Source of the DNA: Flavobacteriales bacterium | Lineage (GTDB): Bacteria; Bacteroidota; Bacteroidia; Flavobacteriales; BACL11 | Reading direction: 5' to 3' | DNA length: 50,638 nt | Assembly (NCBI GenBank): GCA_018647945.1 | Contig: JABGSE010000018.1 | Span: 1-50,638 of the forward strand | Shown: positions 27,186 through 31,651 of the stretch, in pieces | Numbering within the stretch: the first letter of the stretch is position 1 | Layout: every line of letters starts with the position of its first letter | Notes under the pieces: model-generated | Seen by the model: only the letters and a program-made list of their open reading frames with translations | Told to the model about the DNA's origin: nothing | Databases searched by the model: none | Translations under genes and position numbers: made by a program

Positions 27186-27962
27186 ATGAGTGAACTACAA
27201 GTAAAAACAATGGCCGAATTTATGGCAGAAGGAAAAGAAGCAGACATTCTTTTTTGGGTAGGTAGTGCCGGAAGTTTTGACGATAGATCAAAAAAAATAA
27301 CAAAAGCATTTGTTCAGATAATGAATAAATCAGGGGTTAATTTTGGTGTTTTGGGATCTGAAGAATCTTCATCAGGAGATGCTGCTAAAAGAGCCGGAAA
27401 TGAATTCCTTTTCCAGATGCAGGCAATGATGAACATTGAGGTAATGAATACCTATAATGTGAAAAGGATTGTCACTACTTGTCCTCACTCTTACAACACT
27501 CTAAAAAACGAATACAAAGGTTTGGGAGGGGATTATAAAGTACAACATCATACTGAGTTTATTGAGGAATTAATATCAGAAGGAAAATTGAAAATAACTG
27601 GAGATTTAAGTGGAAAGAAGATTACTTATCACGATCCATGTTATTTAGGGAGAGCTAATAATGTATATGACGCTCCAAGAAATTTGATAAAATTTTTAGG
27701 AGTTGAATTAGTAGAAATGAAAAGAAGTAAACGACTTTCTTTTTGCTGTGGTGCCGGTGGTGCTCAAATGTTTAAAGAACCAGAAAAAGGATCTCAGGAC
27801 ATTAACATAAACAGAACGGAAGAAGCGCTTGCTCTTAAACCAGATATTATTGCTACTGGATGTCCGTTTTGTAATACCATGATGACAGATGGTGTAAAAT
27901 CTGTAAATGAAGGTGCGGCTGAAGTATTAGATATTGCAGAACTCATTGCAGAAAACATATAA
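27186..27962 (+). CDS. CCG-domain (Fe-S)-binding protein, HdrB/LutA/GlpC-like
   Basis: A 258-residue soluble protein with cysteine motifs of the CCG family: TTCPHSYNTLKNEY (Cys 99), ITYHDPCYLGR, FCCGAGGAQMF (Cys 187 and 188) and TGCPFCNTMM (Cys 226 and 229). In HdrB and lactate-oxidation subunits such cysteines bind a non-cubane or 4Fe-4S cluster. It is best seen as the partner of the membrane Fe-S protein at 25456: together they have the layout of an HdrDE/GlpC-like electron-transfer unit in separate polypeptides. The start at 27186 follows the HAD stop by four bases, and its TAA overlaps the ATG of the next gene by one base. Confidence 0.85.
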   Translation: MSELQVKTMAEFMAEGKEADILFWVGSAGSFDDRSKKITKAFVQIMNKSGVNFGVLGSEESSSGDAAKRAGNEFLFQMQAMMNIEVMNTYNVKRIVTTCPHSYNTLKNEYKGLGGDYKVQHHTEFIEELISEGKLKITGDLSGKKITYHDPCYLGRANNVYDAPRNLIKFLGVELVEMKRSKRLSFCCGAGGAQMFKEPEKGSQDININRTEEALALKPDIIATGCPFCNTMMTDGVKSVNEGAAEVLDIAELIAENI

Positions 27963-28429
27963 TGTTAGTTGATTTTAATACTACTGATGATCAGTCCAGG
28001 ATTTGGATTTATGCAGCAGATCAGAAATTAACAAATGAGCAAGAAAATTATATTCTAAAGTCTATTTCTGATCATCTTCAAAATTGGGAATCTCATAAAG
28101 TACCCTTAACTGCTGGGGTTACAATTTTAGAACATCACTTTATTATTATTGCTTTGGATGAAACTAAAAATGGAGCAAGTGGTTGTTCTATTGATACACT
28201 TCAAAATAAGATACAAAATTTAGAAAAAGAACTTTCTATTTCTTTACTAAACAGATTGAATATTTTCTGTAGAATAAACGATACTATAAAATGCATACCT
28301 ACCACCAAATTAGCAGATAATGCAAATAAAGAAACTTTATTTTACGACCTTACAATACAGAAAAAGAATGAACTTTCTAATTGGTTAAAACCAATAGAAG
28401 AGGGTTGGTGTGCTACTATTATTCTATAA
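27962..28429 (+). CDS. Conserved small Bacteroidota protein of unknown function
   Basis: A 155-residue soluble protein with no signal peptide. It has IWIYAADQKLTNEQENYIL at the start, a central GASGCSIDTLQ segment and NIFCRINDTI. The cysteine in SGCSID and the ending EGWCATIIL look conserved-like, and I recall this type of protein being next to Fe-S genes in Flavobacteriia and wrongly labelled ABC-transporter ATPase. No Walker A motif is present, so that label is wrong for this protein. It is coupled to the CCG gene by a one-base overlap (TAATG) and converges on the LRR gene with an 11-base overlap. No function is assigned. Confidence 0.7.
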   Translation: MLVDFNTTDDQSRIWIYAADQKLTNEQENYILKSISDHLQNWESHKVPLTAGVTILEHHFIIIALDETKNGASGCSIDTLQNKIQNLEKELSISLLNRLNIFCRINDTIKCIPTTKLADNANKETLFYDLTIQKKNELSNWLKPIEEGWCATIIL

Positions 28430-29630
28430 CTCTTCTTTTCTCTACTGTTCCATCATTATAGATGTAAAAGAGAGGTCGGTTCTTTGTTTCTCTTCCTAAA
28501 AGGTCTGTTGTTCGCAAGAGTTCTTTGTTGGTAGTGTGTTCTTCAATTATATTAGAAGTATTTCCACAATTAGAACTAAATGTATTCCAACTATCAATAC
28601 AATCATTATTTACAGTCCAATTCATCATAGACCACCCAGGGTTGTCAACATCTACACAGAACAAACTATAATTTCCAGTAATATCAATATCCCAAAAGGT
28701 TGTTCCAATATTTTGATTGTTATTGTTTCTGATATCTAATGAAGTTAACTGATTATCAAAACACCATATTGTTTGTAGAAAATAATTTCCACTAAGATCT
28801 AAGGATGTCAAATCATTTCTTTGACAAAAGAACAATTCCAAGAAAATATTTGCACTAACATCTATTGAAGTAAGATCATTATTATCTATTATTAAATTTT
28901 TTATTGCTGTATTATTAGTTACATTTAAGTTAGATATCTGATTATCATCACACCACAAAGATTCTAAAAGAGTGTTAACAGTAACATCTAAAGCCGTAAG
29001 TAAATTATAATTACAATATAATGCTATTAAATTTGGATTATTACTTATGTCTAAAGATGTAATCTGATTGTTCTTACAATCAAAAACAGCTAAATTAGAA
29101 TTCGTACTAACATCTATTGAGCTAAACAAATTAAAAGGAATAGTTAAATTTACTAGATTTGGATTATTGCTTACATCTATAGTAGGAATTTGATTATGTC
29201 CTGCAAATAAAAAAATAAGAAGTGGATTAGAAGTTACATCTAATGTTGACAGATTGTTATAACTACATTGCAGATTATTTAGGTTAACATTTGCCGTTAT
29301 ATCTAATGATGTAAGTTGGTTTGCATCACATTCTAAATAAATAAGAGTTGTATTATTACTGATGTCAATACTACTTAATTGGTTATCTTGACAATAAAGA
29401 TACAGTAATGCTGAGAAATCTTCTATTCCTGTTAAATCAGAAATACTTGTACTACTTAAATCAATAGTCGTTAAAGTATTAATATTTGCAGTAGGCACTG
29501 AACCATTTGGGGTTCCAGTATCATAACCTAAATTAATAAGTGCCTGTTCAAAATTAACATCAGGTATCATTGTTAATTGCCCAAACCCAACCAAAGGCAC
29601 ACATAGTAATAGTAGTAATAGTTTTTTCAT
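28419..29630 (-). CDS. Secreted leucine-rich-repeat protein with T9SS-like tail
   Basis: A 403-residue protein with signal peptide MKKLLLLLLCVPLVGFGQ, an N-terminal segment LTMIPDVNFEQALINLGYD common in Flavobacteriales LRR proteins, and eleven 21-residue repeats (residues 74-304) of the form LxxLxCxxNxLTSLDVSxNP. The region after that contains SWNTFSSNCG and ends in ELLRTTDLLGRET and FYIYNDGTVEKRRVIE, which resembles a type A T9SS sorting tail with conserved end. It is probably exported and either surface-attached or released, and could mediate binding; a ligand is not predictable. Its stop overlaps the 155-residue gene from the opposite strand by 11 bases, and its start overlaps the end of the upstream small membrane gene by one base. 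Confidence 0.82.
   Translation of the reverse strand: MKKLLLLLLCVPLVGFGQLTMIPDVNFEQALINLGYDTGTPNGSVPTANINTLTTIDLSSTSISDLTGIEDFSALLYLYCQDNQLSSIDISNNTTLIYLECDANQLTSLDITANVNLNNLQCSYNNLSTLDVTSNPLLIFLFAGHNQIPTIDVSNNPNLVNLTIPFNLFSSIDVSTNSNLAVFDCKNNQITSLDISNNPNLIALYCNYNLLTALDVTVNTLLESLWCDDNQISNLNVTNNTAIKNLIIDNNDLTSIDVSANIFLELFFCQRNDLTSLDLSGNYFLQTIWCFDNQLTSLDIRNNNNQNIGTTFWDIDITGNYSLFCVDVDNPGWSMMNWTVNNDCIDSWNTFSSNCGNTSNIIEEHTTNKELLRTTDLLGRETKNRPLFYIYNDGTVEKRRVIE
28719..29411 (-). repeat. Eleven tandem 63-base leucine-rich repeats
   Basis: Eleven in-frame units of 63 bases each encode 21-residue repeats with leucines, a common cysteine at position 7 and an asparagine at position 10. DNA similarity between units is only partial, so expansion is old, but repeats of this type can still change number by recombination. 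Confidence 0.8.
29609..29630 (-). repeat. 22-base exact repeat at the LRR gene start (copy 1)
   Basis: These 22 bases cover the first codons (ATGAAAAAACTA onward) of the LRR gene and occur identically at 30779-30800, upstream of the repeat-protein gene. A further 18-base block from the signal-peptide region (29592-29609) is identical to 30729-30746. It marks duplicated signal-peptide DNA. Confidence 0.8.
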
Positions 29631-29926
29631 TAGAATAACTCCATCAGTAAAAGAATTAAAACTATCAAAAGAGTAATTAGTTTAAGTTTAGTTAAAATTT
29701 TTGAAGGGACTCTTTTCTTTATTTGAATAATAATCCAGTATATTAACCAGTAAACAATAAATATCCCAACACCAAAAGGAATCCAACCAATAAGGTCATC
29801 GTAAGTAGTTTCAATTCCATATTTTTTAATTACATACTCACCATTATTTGTTTTTCTTAATAATAACTGAATAATAAATATTAAGCTAGGTAATATAGCT
29901 GATAAAATTAAATGTAATTTTTTCAT
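29630..29926 (-). CDS. Small three-helix membrane protein
   Basis: A 98-residue protein with three predicted membrane helices, at about residues 4-24, 47-69 and 77-98, and a basic loop KKRVPSKIL between the last two. I recognise no family. Its ATG at 29926 is inside an ATGA overlap with a 16-codon upstream frame (29923-29970), and its stop overlaps the LRR gene start by one base, which suggests one transcript with tight coupling. It sits between two secreted repeat proteins and could be a carried-along gene of the cassette. Composition is normal for an AT-rich membrane protein. The coding call rests on overlap structure and hydrophobic pattern only. Confidence 0.6.
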   Translation of the reverse strand: MKKLHLILSAILPSLIFIIQLLLRKTNNGEYVIKKYGIETTYDDLIGWIPFGVGIFIVYWLIYWIIIQIKKRVPSKILTKLKLITLLIVLILLLMELF

Positions 29927-29970
29927 AGTAATATAAGTAGTAGTTTTTTCATAGTTTTAAGTTTTTTCAT
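29923..29970 (-). other. Relic or leader frame encoding signal-peptide start
   Basis: A 16-codon frame reads MKKLKTMKKLLLILL then TGA, overlapping the start of the 98-residue membrane protein by ATGA. The second half, from the ATG at 29952, repeats the first residues of the two neighbouring secreted proteins. It could be a leftover signal-peptide start or a short coupled leader. Confidence 0.5.
29938..29963 (-). repeat. 26-base repeat with one mismatch (copy 1)
   Basis: Matches 30753-30778 at 25 of 26 positions; both copies carry ACTTAAAACT before an ATG and the first codons of a MKKLL-type signal peptide. In the second copy this ATG is the real start of the 26-residue-repeat protein; here it lies in the short frame at 29923-29970. 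Confidence 0.75.
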
Positions 29971-29996
29971 TTTGTTATTCGTTTCTTAAAGGGCAT

Positions 29997-30767
29997 TTAT
30001 TCGTAGTATTCTATTTCTCTTTCAGTAATCTCTAGTGGGTTACCATCTTCATATCTTGTTCTTACTATCCAATTATTTAGCTTATCAAACTCATATTGGT
30101 ATGTATAATTCCAATCACTTGGATATCCATAAGAAGAGTTTCCTATCATATTCCCATCCTCATCATATTGGTAATTAAATTTTAATGATAGGCGTCCATC
30201 TGATATTCTATAGCAACTCTTCTCCATCTCATTTCCATCCTCATCATATTGGTATTTATACTTCGTAGCTAGTTCTCCATCATAATATTTCCACTCCGTT
30301 TTATTACCATCCTCATCATATTTGTATTTAGAATTGCTTCCTAGCTCTCCATTTGCATTATAAGAAGTCATCTCTGTCATATTCCCATCCTTATTATATA
30401 GGTATTTATTCTTCCCATCTATCTCTCCATTTGCATTATAAGAAGTCCTCTCTGTCATATTCCCATCTTCATTATATTTGTATTTCTCATTCCAGTACCT
30501 TTGCACCTCTAATCCGTCCTCTATACCAAGAGCAGTCCCCTCCCACTCCGTCTTATTCCCATCCTTATTATATAGGTATTTATCCTTTCTATATATCTCT
30601 TCGCTTGCAATTACATACGTAGTTCCTGTAATTTGTTTAACTTTTATATTTTCTTCAGTTAAGTCATTTTCAATCTCTTTCTTTTTCTCATTTTCTGTAT
30701 CCTTCTTATTCTCCCCAAAAGAGAACATCAAAGGCACACATAGTAAAATCAATAGTAATTTTTTCAT
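29997..30767 (-). CDS. Secreted protein with 26-residue DGN/YD-like repeats
   Basis: A 256-residue exported protein. Residues 1 to about 18 form a signal peptide (MKKLLLILLCVPLMFSFG), followed by a charged stretch of E, K and N, then repeats of the pattern KYxYxxDGNxTExxxYxxxGE. Two adjacent copies (KYKYNEDGNMTERTSYNANG and KYLYNKDGNMTEMTSYNANG) are nearly identical. The pattern recalls YD/RHS-type or MORN-like beta-hairpin repeats, often seen in Bacteroidota cell-surface proteins, but the role is unknown. The TAA at 29997 has no obvious terminator. The start ATG at 30767 is preceded by ACTTAAAACT, part of the duplicated block. Confidence 0.7.
   Translation of the reverse strand: MKKLLLILLCVPLMFSFGENKKDTENEKKKEIENDLTEENIKVKQITGTTYVIASEEIYRKDKYLYNKDGNKTEWEGTALGIEDGLEVQRYWNEKYKYNEDGNMTERTSYNANGEIDGKNKYLYNKDGNMTEMTSYNANGELGSNSKYKYDEDGNKTEWKYYDGELATKYKYQYDEDGNEMEKSCYRISDGRLSLKFNYQYDEDGNMIGNSSYGYPSDWNYTYQYEFDKLNNWIVRTRYEDGNPLEITEREIEYYE
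30345..30500 (-). repeat. 78-base imperfect tandem repeat
   Basis: Two adjacent copies of a 78-base unit, starting at about 30345 and 30423, encode successive 26-residue repeats with few differences. Long stretches match exactly, so this pair looks like a fairly recent duplication inside an older repeat array. Confidence 0.7.
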
Positions 30768-30778
30768 AGTTTTAAGTT
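30753..30778 (-). repeat. 26-base repeat with one mismatch (copy 2)
   Basis: Second copy of the block at 29938-29963, here containing the true start codon of the repeat-protein gene. Confidence 0.75.
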
Positions 30779-30800
30779 ATAGTAGTAATAGTTTTTTCAT
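30777..30800 (-). other. Relic signal-peptide start (7 codons plus stop)
   Basis: The minus strand reads ATG AAA AAA CTA TTA CTA CTA TAA, MKKLLLL then stop. The first 22 bases (30779-30800) are identical to the start of the LRR gene at 29609-29630. It lies 9 bases before the true start of the repeat-protein gene and looks like a broken-off 5' end left after recombination at the signal-peptide region. Confidence 0.6.
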
Positions 30801-30838
30801 AGTATTTATCGTAAGTTAATCTAAGTAGTGTTTATTTT

Positions 30839-31651
30839 TTATCTAATAGTTTCTTGTATCTTTATTAGTTTAACAAGTAGTTCTTCTAATTGATCTAGCT
30901 CGAGCATATTTGCACCATCTGATTTTGAATTTTTAGGGTTAGGGTGTGTTTCTAAAAAGATTCCATCAACCCCAACTGCTATTCCTGCTTTAGCAATTGT
31001 CTCTATCATTTCTGGTTTACCACCAGTTACACCACTACTTTGGTTGGGTGTTTGTAGGGAATGTGTAATATCCAAAATAACAGGAACACCAAATTTTTTC
31101 ATAATAGGAATCCCTCTATAATCTACCACAATATCTTGGTAACCAAACATAGTTCCTCTATCGGTAAGCATTACAGTATTATTCCCACTTTCCTTTACCT
31201 TGTTTACTGCATGTTCCATACTTTCAGGAGAAAGGAATTGTCCTTTTTTAATATTCACCACTTTTCCTGTTTTGGCTGCTGCCACTAATAGTTCAGTTTG
31301 TCTGCACAAAAATGCTGGTATTTGTAATACATCAACATATTGTGCGGCAATTGAGGCTTCTTCAGCAGTATGTATGTCAGTTATAGTAGGAATGTTAAAG
31401 CGTTCACCTACCTTTTTTAGAATTTCCAAGGCTTCCATATCGCCAATTCCTGTGAAAGAGTCCAAGCGAGAACGGTTTGCCTTACGGTAACTTCCTTTAA
31501 AGATAAAGGGAATTTCTAATAGAGTACAAATATTGAGTATTTTCTCTGCAATTTCCATTGCTATTTCTTCACTCTCAATAACACAAGGCCCCGCCATAAG
31601 GAAGAAATTACCACTATTGTTATGTTGTAAGTTATTTATTTTTGATAGCAT
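30839..31651 (-). CDS. kdsA: 3-deoxy-8-phosphooctulonate synthase
   Basis: KdsA joins arabinose-5-phosphate and phosphoenolpyruvate to make Kdo-8-phosphate for the LPS inner core. The 270-residue protein carries FLMAGPCVIESEE (from residue 17), IFKGSYRKANRSRLDSF, IPTITDIHTAEEA, LQIPAFLCRQTELL, VMLTDRGTMFGY, PVILDITHSLQTPNQ and NSKSDGANML, in the order and spacing of the family. Cys 23 is in the position that decides metal-dependence in some KdsA enzymes. The start is the ATG at 31651. It follows the DUF5723 gene by five bases on the same strand. Like lptD it supports a Kdo-type LPS. Confidence 0.96.
   Translation of the reverse strand: MLSKINNLQHNNSGNFFLMAGPCVIESEEIAMEIAEKILNICTLLEIPFIFKGSYRKANRSRLDSFTGIGDMEALEILKKVGERFNIPTITDIHTAEEASIAAQYVDVLQIPAFLCRQTELLVAAAKTGKVVNIKKGQFLSPESMEHAVNKVKESGNNTVMLTDRGTMFGYQDIVVDYRGIPIMKKFGVPVILDITHSLQTPNQSSGVTGGKPEMIETIAKAGIAVGVDGIFLETHPNPKNSKSDGANMLELDQLEELLVKLIKIQETIR

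Follow-up and report, generated by a model that had tools for sequence, protein, structure and literature searches.

A dispersed signal-peptide DNA block, probably the common 5′ end of an exchangeable pool of secreted genes, in a family of marine Flavobacteriales

Conotoxins and prochlorosin leaders are homologous peptide families in which a conserved signal precedes a hypervariable mature part, and tycheposons are tRNA-targeted elements of marine bacteria. Integron gene cassettes are mobile single genes. In polymorphic toxin systems, recombination replaces the domain attached to a part that itself stays constant (PMC3482391). Here we describe a signal-peptide DNA block of ~54 nt found in a 50,638-nt stretch of a Flavobacteriales bacterium (contig JABGSE010000018.1 of assembly GCA_018647945.1; hereafter the window), which resembles each of these systems in some respects. 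With polymorphic toxins it shares a constant part with an exchanged attached domain, except that here a signal peptide of ~18 codons plays the constant role and that the cargo includes leucine-rich-repeat (LRR), YD-repeat and depolymerase-like proteins; with conotoxins and prochlorosin leaders it shares conserved front-end DNA and a variable mature part, whereas the mature parts here fall into many clusters and one protein exceeds 1,000 residues. Like integron cassettes, some block genes are found in arrays separated by a short module, and a tRNA-adjacent tyrosine integrase and cargo turnover recall tycheposons. We found no description of signal-peptide block exchange in the open-access literature, which is weak evidence of novelty.

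An initial annotation of the window had proposed that repeated recombination at a shared signal-peptide cassette swaps mature secreted domains and leaves 5′ stumps, and that the repeats be searched for in the whole genome. The block recurs as a DNA repeat scattered through the genomes of the family, and we consider it probable that it forms the common 5′ end of an exchangeable pool of secreted genes, with recombination replacing their mature parts. The block runs from the ATG through the Gln codon expected after the predicted cleavage site. In the genome of origin (G000; 1.62 Mb in 99 contigs, the window being contig C32), BLAST with a piece of the window retrieved it on contigs C54, C26, C56, C20, C9, C40, C50 and C6 (82–100% over 37–60 nt), where it fronts varied proteins (12 kept genes in 8 clusters). 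A profile built from sequence alone, out of 12 block copies, matched this genome 24 times at E ≤ 0.01, four times inside the window and 20 outside, and gave hits in 24 of the 24 same-family relatives searched (1 to 31 each), those in G020 and G023 being no stronger than in outgroups. Among 15 same-order outgroup genomes of other families, ten had 1 to 6 weak hits and five had none, the best match reaching E 8.7e-4. A degenerate exact pattern run over GTDB contigs matched 23 stretches, 22 titled Flavobacteriales or Cryomorphaceae and one Bacteroidetes. The block thus recurs in the genome and in the family ahead of unrelated genes.

The comparisons below rest on 130 block genes from 22 genomes, kept out of 151 nhmmer hits (score ≥28, at least 40 amino acids (aa)) among the matches listed; G005, G007, G008, G011, G019, G021 and G022 contributed one kept gene each and G020, G023 and G024 none, and loci L070–L077, which arrived with the collected hits, were left unused. 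The family genomes are drafts, mostly fragmented, G015 having 2 contigs and being 99% complete. Block copies lie near contig ends in G000 (C40:111, C50:326, C6:424) and on several G004 contigs, so the true copy number is possibly underestimated in fragmented assemblies.

With the C-terminal tail removed, the 130 genes fall into 64 mature-protein clusters (single linkage, E 1e-2), an approximate count: the largest cluster (33 members) is certainly over-merged, and C26 (LRR) and C56 were co-clustered although their direct comparison gives E 0.045. Between members of different clusters (563 same-genome and 7,205 cross-genome pairs), DNA identity has sharp borders, being 0.28–0.45 upstream, 0.95–0.99 over codons 1–3 (0.99 at the ATG), 0.60–0.94 over codons 4–14, 0.43–0.59 over codons 15–18 and 0.29–0.38 beyond codon 18. 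At least 50 of the 54 block bases are common in 21 of the 563 same-genome pairs, and up to 53/54 between different clusters; common 5′ leaders also recur ahead of unrelated genes. Residue 18 is Gln in 97/130 genes, and Cys occurs within residues 16–20 in 25/130, four of which also have Gln at residue 18. The Bacteroidetes Q-rule puts Gln directly after the signal-peptide cleavage site (PMC5837995), where most block genes are predicted to have it, so that they classify by sequence as Q-rule signal peptides.

Three DNA versions can be distinguished (A, 38 genes; B, 10; C, 61; other, 21), and all three coexist in each of G000, G001, G002 and G003. Given six Leu, the type-A string CTA-TTA-CTA-CTA-TTA-CTA has a probability of 1.6e-5 (CTA makes up 9% of the Leu codons in window open reading frames (ORFs) of at least 200 aa), yet 18/130 genes carry it; the version C string for LLLILL is found in 28/130, and in 2,000 trials of 130 random encodings of LLLLLL one string reached at most 8 copies, although these string counts are inflated because the 130 genes were gathered by a DNA profile, i.e. 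picked for DNA similarity. Cross-genome codon identity at same-residue sites reaches 0.80 and 0.91 at codons 4 and 8, respectively, versus 0.31 expected. As an independent argument, in 15 homologous pairs (out of 18 rows, with the aroQ non-homologues, one contig-edge pair of 109 nt and one frame-shifted pair set aside), block similarity is above that of mature DNA in 8 and below it in 7; therefore, the block is not specially protected. From these comparisons, copying of the block appears likelier than selection. A TAAGTTTG-type motif, which we take to be the Bacteroidetes −7 box, lies upstream of block genes such as L115, L141, L155:122, L158 and L173:369 and ends ~4 nt short of their ATG, a position that suggests leaderless transcripts.

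The initial annotation had also proposed comparing the locus among strains, and comparison among species revealed different mature genes between conserved flanks at four loci: M61-type peptidase–X–hpt, aroQ–X–glycosyltransferase, C39/C47 and gamma-carbonic anhydrase–X–aldehyde dehydrogenase. Gene names such as kdsA, aroQ, hpt, M61 peptidase and carbonic anhydrase are presumptive, being our own readings; the family search among them covered the kdsA product only. At M61–X–hpt, where the flanks are 94% and 84% identical, a 427-aa repeat protein in G000 corresponds to a CDGSH-like gene and a 374-aa LRR-like protein in G002; the mature parts have no significant similarity, and the final ~45 nt of the tail, a single mismatch aside, continue into the conserved downstream gene. 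In G006, G012 and G013, homologues of the upstream gene (58–65% identity) abut hpt. Behind aroQ lie an LRR-like gene in G000 (3′ flank absent from the data), 92-aa and 157-aa genes in G002 and a 244-aa lipoprotein-like gene in G004, the 3′ flank being common to G002 and G004 (95% over 5.8 kb). The C39/C47 flanks (5′, 94%; 3′, 97% over 3.9 kb) enclose short secreted genes without detectable similarity. Finally, the gamma-carbonic anhydrase locus (flanks 80% and 88%) harbors a 270-aa gene in G000 and a 300-aa gene in G060, which belongs to another genus. This 300-aa gene is the sole relative of the YD-repeat gene of the window in 52 family genomes (E ≤ 1e-6; 39% identity), and it has a type-C block at another locus, versus type B for the window gene. 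Recurrence of the block and the swapped loci largely support the earlier recombination-cassette idea; that recombination starts in the signal-peptide DNA itself is a conjecture.

Near-identical or related mature genes were also found behind different blocks, in keeping with the proposed swapping of mature domains. The C54 protein has homologues at 60–70% in other genera, G010 among them; ordinary signal peptides that differ from one another front those of G006, G007, G008, G011 and G012, while the G009 homologue starts type-C-like for ~19 nt. The full block is confined to G000, as type B, and to G004, as type A with an 87% identical protein, and stands behind different leaders in the two. G003 and G018, which are of different genera, have a gene in common from the ATG to 4 nt past the stop, with unrelated flanks and with 331/349 identical positions in the mature DNA versus 40/54 in the block (p = 9e-6). 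For G009 and G013, again of different genera and with unrelated flanks, the figures are 326/350 and 41/54 (p = 3e-4). Altogether, such gene-precise sharing between genera spans the ATG to 2–6 nt past the stop, and with mature DNA at 93–95% and block DNA at 74–76% identity, mature part and block have separate histories.

The features of the window itself are as follows.

28419..29630, minus strand: LRR secreted protein, 403 aa (Pfam LRR_4, 49.7 bits, cut-off 27)
29577..29630, minus strand: type-A signal-peptide block, 54 nt, MKKLLLLLLCVPLVGFGQ, at the front of the LRR gene
29630..29926, minus strand: membrane protein predicted by our reading, 98 aa; its stop overlaps the next start (TAATG)
29927..29952, minus strand: stump 2b, a type-C block truncated at ...ATTACT and joined to the ATG of the next gene
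29953..29970, minus strand: stump 2a, ATGAAAAAACT followed by TAAAACT; its leader is common to 30768–30778 and C54
29997..30767, minus strand: YD/RHS-repeat gene, 256 aa, with a type-B block at 30714–30767
30777..30800, minus strand: stump 1, the first 22 nt of a type-A block in the frame MKKLLLL*, then leader AACTTAAAACT
28430..30838: three-gene insert, flanked by the gene at 27962–28429 (plus strand) and by kdsA, which converge
30839..31651, minus strand: kdsA (family search of the product, DAHP_synth_1)

The type-A block of the LRR gene (profile E 3.9e-17) has 93–100% matches over 37–57 nt at C26, C56, C20, C9 and C40. The broken frames reported between the genes, MKKLLLL* and MKKLKTMKKLLLILL*, are present as described. 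The 30-nt string of stump 1 occurs twice in G056 and nowhere else outside the window (≤2 mismatches, 52 family genomes); at the same tolerance it is rare, with one copy in 40 relatives and three copies in 2/52 family genomes. G002 carries a copy with one base missing which, that base apart, aligns with the live type-A start of a different G004 gene at the same locus. The view of 5′ stumps as recombination remnants is supported by this orthology between a stump and the live start of a sister species. Copies of the stump 1 type all break at the same base and then run into AACTTAAA, so a single join with subsequent spread, instead of several independent events, may have given rise to them. In G056 (ORF at L353:1979) there is a join resembling that of stump 2b, with the block cut at ...TTACT and followed by the ATG of an unrelated gene.

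The repeats from which the initial annotation started are real: on the minus strand, the 22-mer (29609–29630 and 30779–30800) and the 18-mer (29592–29609 and 30729–30746) are exact and the 26-mer pair (29938–29963 and 30753–30778) has one mismatch. In 300 resamples drawn from a first-order Markov model of the 2,451-nt stretch 28400–30850, the longest exact repeat averaged 12.1 nt with a maximum of 17, so all three lie beyond chance there; in 30 resamples of the whole window the mean was 16.9 and the maximum 21, so the 22-mer is barely above chance and the 18-mer not above it. The longest exact repeat of 28400–30850 (30 nt, at 30380 and 30554) is within the YD-repeat gene, not in a signal-peptide block. 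It is the genome-wide recurrence of the block, rather than the window repeats themselves, that constitutes the strong evidence.

The insert, ~2.4 kb long, contains two block genes and one membrane gene. The 155-aa gene at 27962–28429, which the oppositely oriented LRR gene overlaps with its end, and kdsA are convergent neighbours in G006, G010, G011, G012 and G018, where their spacing ranges from a 9-nt overlap to 111 nt, i.e. in 5/6 relatives whose fetched stretch includes both genes; therefore, the three window genes constitute an insert. In the sixth relative, G015, 830 nt with other short ORFs separate the two genes. The neighbour of kdsA differs in G003, G004 and G005 (a 436/437-aa protein), the G001 and G002 pieces stop within kdsA and those of G013 and G014 are without the 155-aa gene. 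The repeats of the 256-aa protein exceed the curated cut-offs of Pfam RHS_repeat (24 bits, cut-off 22) and NCBIfam YD_repeat_2x (19.6, cut-off 15.8), and the protein is thus a member of these families; the 98-aa predicted membrane protein gave sub-threshold Pfam matches only.

The LRR protein terminates in the common tail ..DLLGRE..PLFYIYNDGTVEKRRVIE, a loose form of which is found in 42/107 complete block genes. The last codons of the tail show excess codon identity in same-genome pairs (0.89 versus 0.36 at position −8, n = 18); the tail as a second repeat was rejected, given small counts and several positions at or below the null. To the eye the tail looks like a type IX secretion system (T9SS) sorting domain, a likeness that Pfam and NCBIfam do not support: no T9SS sorting-tail model was found for the window LRR protein in Pfam (E ≤ 0.1), nor for the window LRR and YD-repeat proteins, C54, L016 and L138 in NCBIfam (E ≤ 1), where L016 had a sub-cut-off match to PorE, which is not a sorting tail. 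Membership among T9SS cargo was consequently not retained. No toxin families were found among these five NCBIfam-scanned proteins, sub-cut-off LRR matches aside, and no toxin domain above cut-off in the Pfam or NCBIfam scans.

A further element adjoins some block genes: 12/130 follow an att-like intergenic module (136-position model) that terminates in the T-arm/acceptor end of tRNA-Pro(TGG) and the sequence following that tRNA. In G018, for instance, a tRNA-Ser and a tRNA-Pro are followed by two block genes, each with a module behind it, and then by three other ORFs and a further module. Module hits (E ≤ 0.01), counted with partial hits and the tRNA-Pro ends themselves, number 23 in G000, 27 in G003, 19 in G004, 18 in G002 and 0–11 in other family genomes; outside the family, one outgroup has 3 and the other 14 none. 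The window has no module hit and no tRNA; the tRNA/att module was therefore rejected as direct cause of the window insert, which differs from an integron gene cassette in having no recombination module next to it. In cmscan of six loci no known RNA matched inside the module, the only hits being tRNAs and sub-cut-off matches overlapping them. Folding a hand-merged consensus of the module as RNA gave nothing better than shuffled sequences did (z −0.27), which lends an attC-like hairpin no support in that form. Two module-adjacent G015 integrases contain Arm-DNA-bind_5 (PF17293), Phage_int_SAM_5 (PF13102) and Phage_integrase (PF00589) domains; together with relatives found by search they occupy six family loci in five genomes (two in G015, one each in G001, G003, G008 and G013, the last gene being cut by the contig end), with a module or an intact tRNA-Pro ~205–330 nt away. 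G012 has a weaker match (29% identity), and the genome of the window has no integrase relative at E ≤ 1e-15. The tRNA-Pro 3′ end of the modules and the domains of the integrases appear to distinguish the arrays from integron cassettes; in contrast to tycheposons, short modules recur here with one or a few genes between them, and the window insert is not at a tRNA.

Several observations concern the modules themselves. Integron- or tycheposon-like arrays in which modules separate one or a few genes occur at L173/L289 (G018), L284 (G003:C30), L288, L286 (G015), L293 (G000:C55), L299 (G001) and L290 (G005), and we found no description of such arrays in the open-access literature. An intact tRNA-Pro is followed within ~350 nt by a tyrosine integrase at L349 (G001), L315 (G015), L351 (G008) and L352 (G013, contig end); in G008 the integrase precedes three large genes resembling, by our reading, a type I restriction-modification set, and then modules. 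At L013:4005–4127 (G000:C9) the module is conserved to GGTTGTAATCCTG and beyond it no longer follows the tRNA-Pro end, possibly because the crossover took place there. A DUF285 protein by Pfam (L299:2959–4476, G001) stands in a module array and has a near-identical N-terminus to L299:4980–6326 and L286:16000–17106 (G015), in module arrays of two genera. Small proteins with ..TNVSYASFP..-like N-termini follow modules at L293:3329 and 3659 (G000:C55), L284:7743 (G003), L286:12649 (G015) and L351:10258 (G008), four genomes in total; this N-terminus is perhaps a second recurrent front end.

Secreted block genes mostly sit straight after the stop codons of resident genes. If recombination does replace mature parts behind the block, the mature part behind a given upstream gene would give way over time to an unrelated one. 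The 5′ joins would fall in or near the signal-peptide block and the 3′ joins in the common C-terminal tail or near the stop, truncated starts being the leftovers of such joins. Short block homology would guide the recombination, either RecA-type or microhomology-mediated, and the incoming DNA would originate from related cells. Several points weigh against this scheme: just one clear chimera, an A-to-C block, was found among 130 blocks; the count of block genes that begin within 90 nt past the stop of an upstream ORF of at least 50 codons (93/130) includes one N-run artefact and comes without a matched control; no significant difference between block and mature identity emerged in 4/6 pairs tested; and the family genomes are drafts. 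Within-genome block similarity exceeds between-genome similarity weakly across the family (p = 0.007) and homogenisation within the genus is not significant (61 genes of G000–G004, p = 0.19), which led us to reject strong within-genome gene conversion. At the swapped loci flank homology extends into the block and the blocks all resemble each other; therefore, the crossover cannot be placed there. The main rival, possible though distinctly less probable, is that whole secreted genes, already equipped with block and leader, come and go as units by site-specific or illegitimate insertion, the block being inactive in recombination. Part of the pattern is accounted for no less well by insertion of whole genes just past a stop codon: homology is gene-precise, 12/130 block genes follow an att-like module, the kdsA and M61–hpt junctions have empty sites and the same relic with its leader recurs as one unit. 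What counts against unit insertion is the divergence of block and mature DNA in G003/G018 and G009/G013 and the M61–X–hpt tail that runs into the conserved downstream gene behind unrelated mature parts. Both processes may act, whole-gene insertion creating sites and recombination refreshing them.

That ordinary selection keeps the same peptide and codons for good translation start or export, by convergence or conservation, seems improbable to us. The Gln at residue 18 is indeed what the Q-rule predicts (PMC5837995), and cross-genome codon identity, which also counts against recombination at the block, has no excess at codon 6 (0.30 versus 0.31) and falls short of the expected value at codon 10 (0.48 versus 0.68). 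Yet rare CTA codons recur in a fixed pattern, three DNA versions exist, homologous pairs conserve the block no better than mature DNA and outgroups give weak hits at most; the codon-usage null and the homologous pairs led us to reject codon selection as the main cause. Misjoining of metagenome contigs at the 54-nt repeat is still less credible: several hits do lie near contig ends and most genomes examined are fragmented drafts, but G015, with its two contigs, has 31 hits, and the four swapped loci each stand on one continuous contig per genome with conserved flanks on both sides. A bolder extension of the recombination reading, which we regard as speculative and rather unlikely, is that block and tail form a dedicated recombination docking site of a family-wide secreted-protein exchange in small-genome marine Flavobacteriales, fed by tRNA-Pro arrays whose promoter-carrying att-like modules reach the signal-peptide start, so that captured genes would be born expressed and exported.

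If the block guides recombination, it would show how small-genome ocean bacteria rewire their outward-facing proteins: a match of a few dozen bases would suffice to turn a new mature gene into an expressed, exported protein at a proven site. This could explain orphan secreted genes with one common N-terminus in this group, and the stumps would let past events be read from single genomes.

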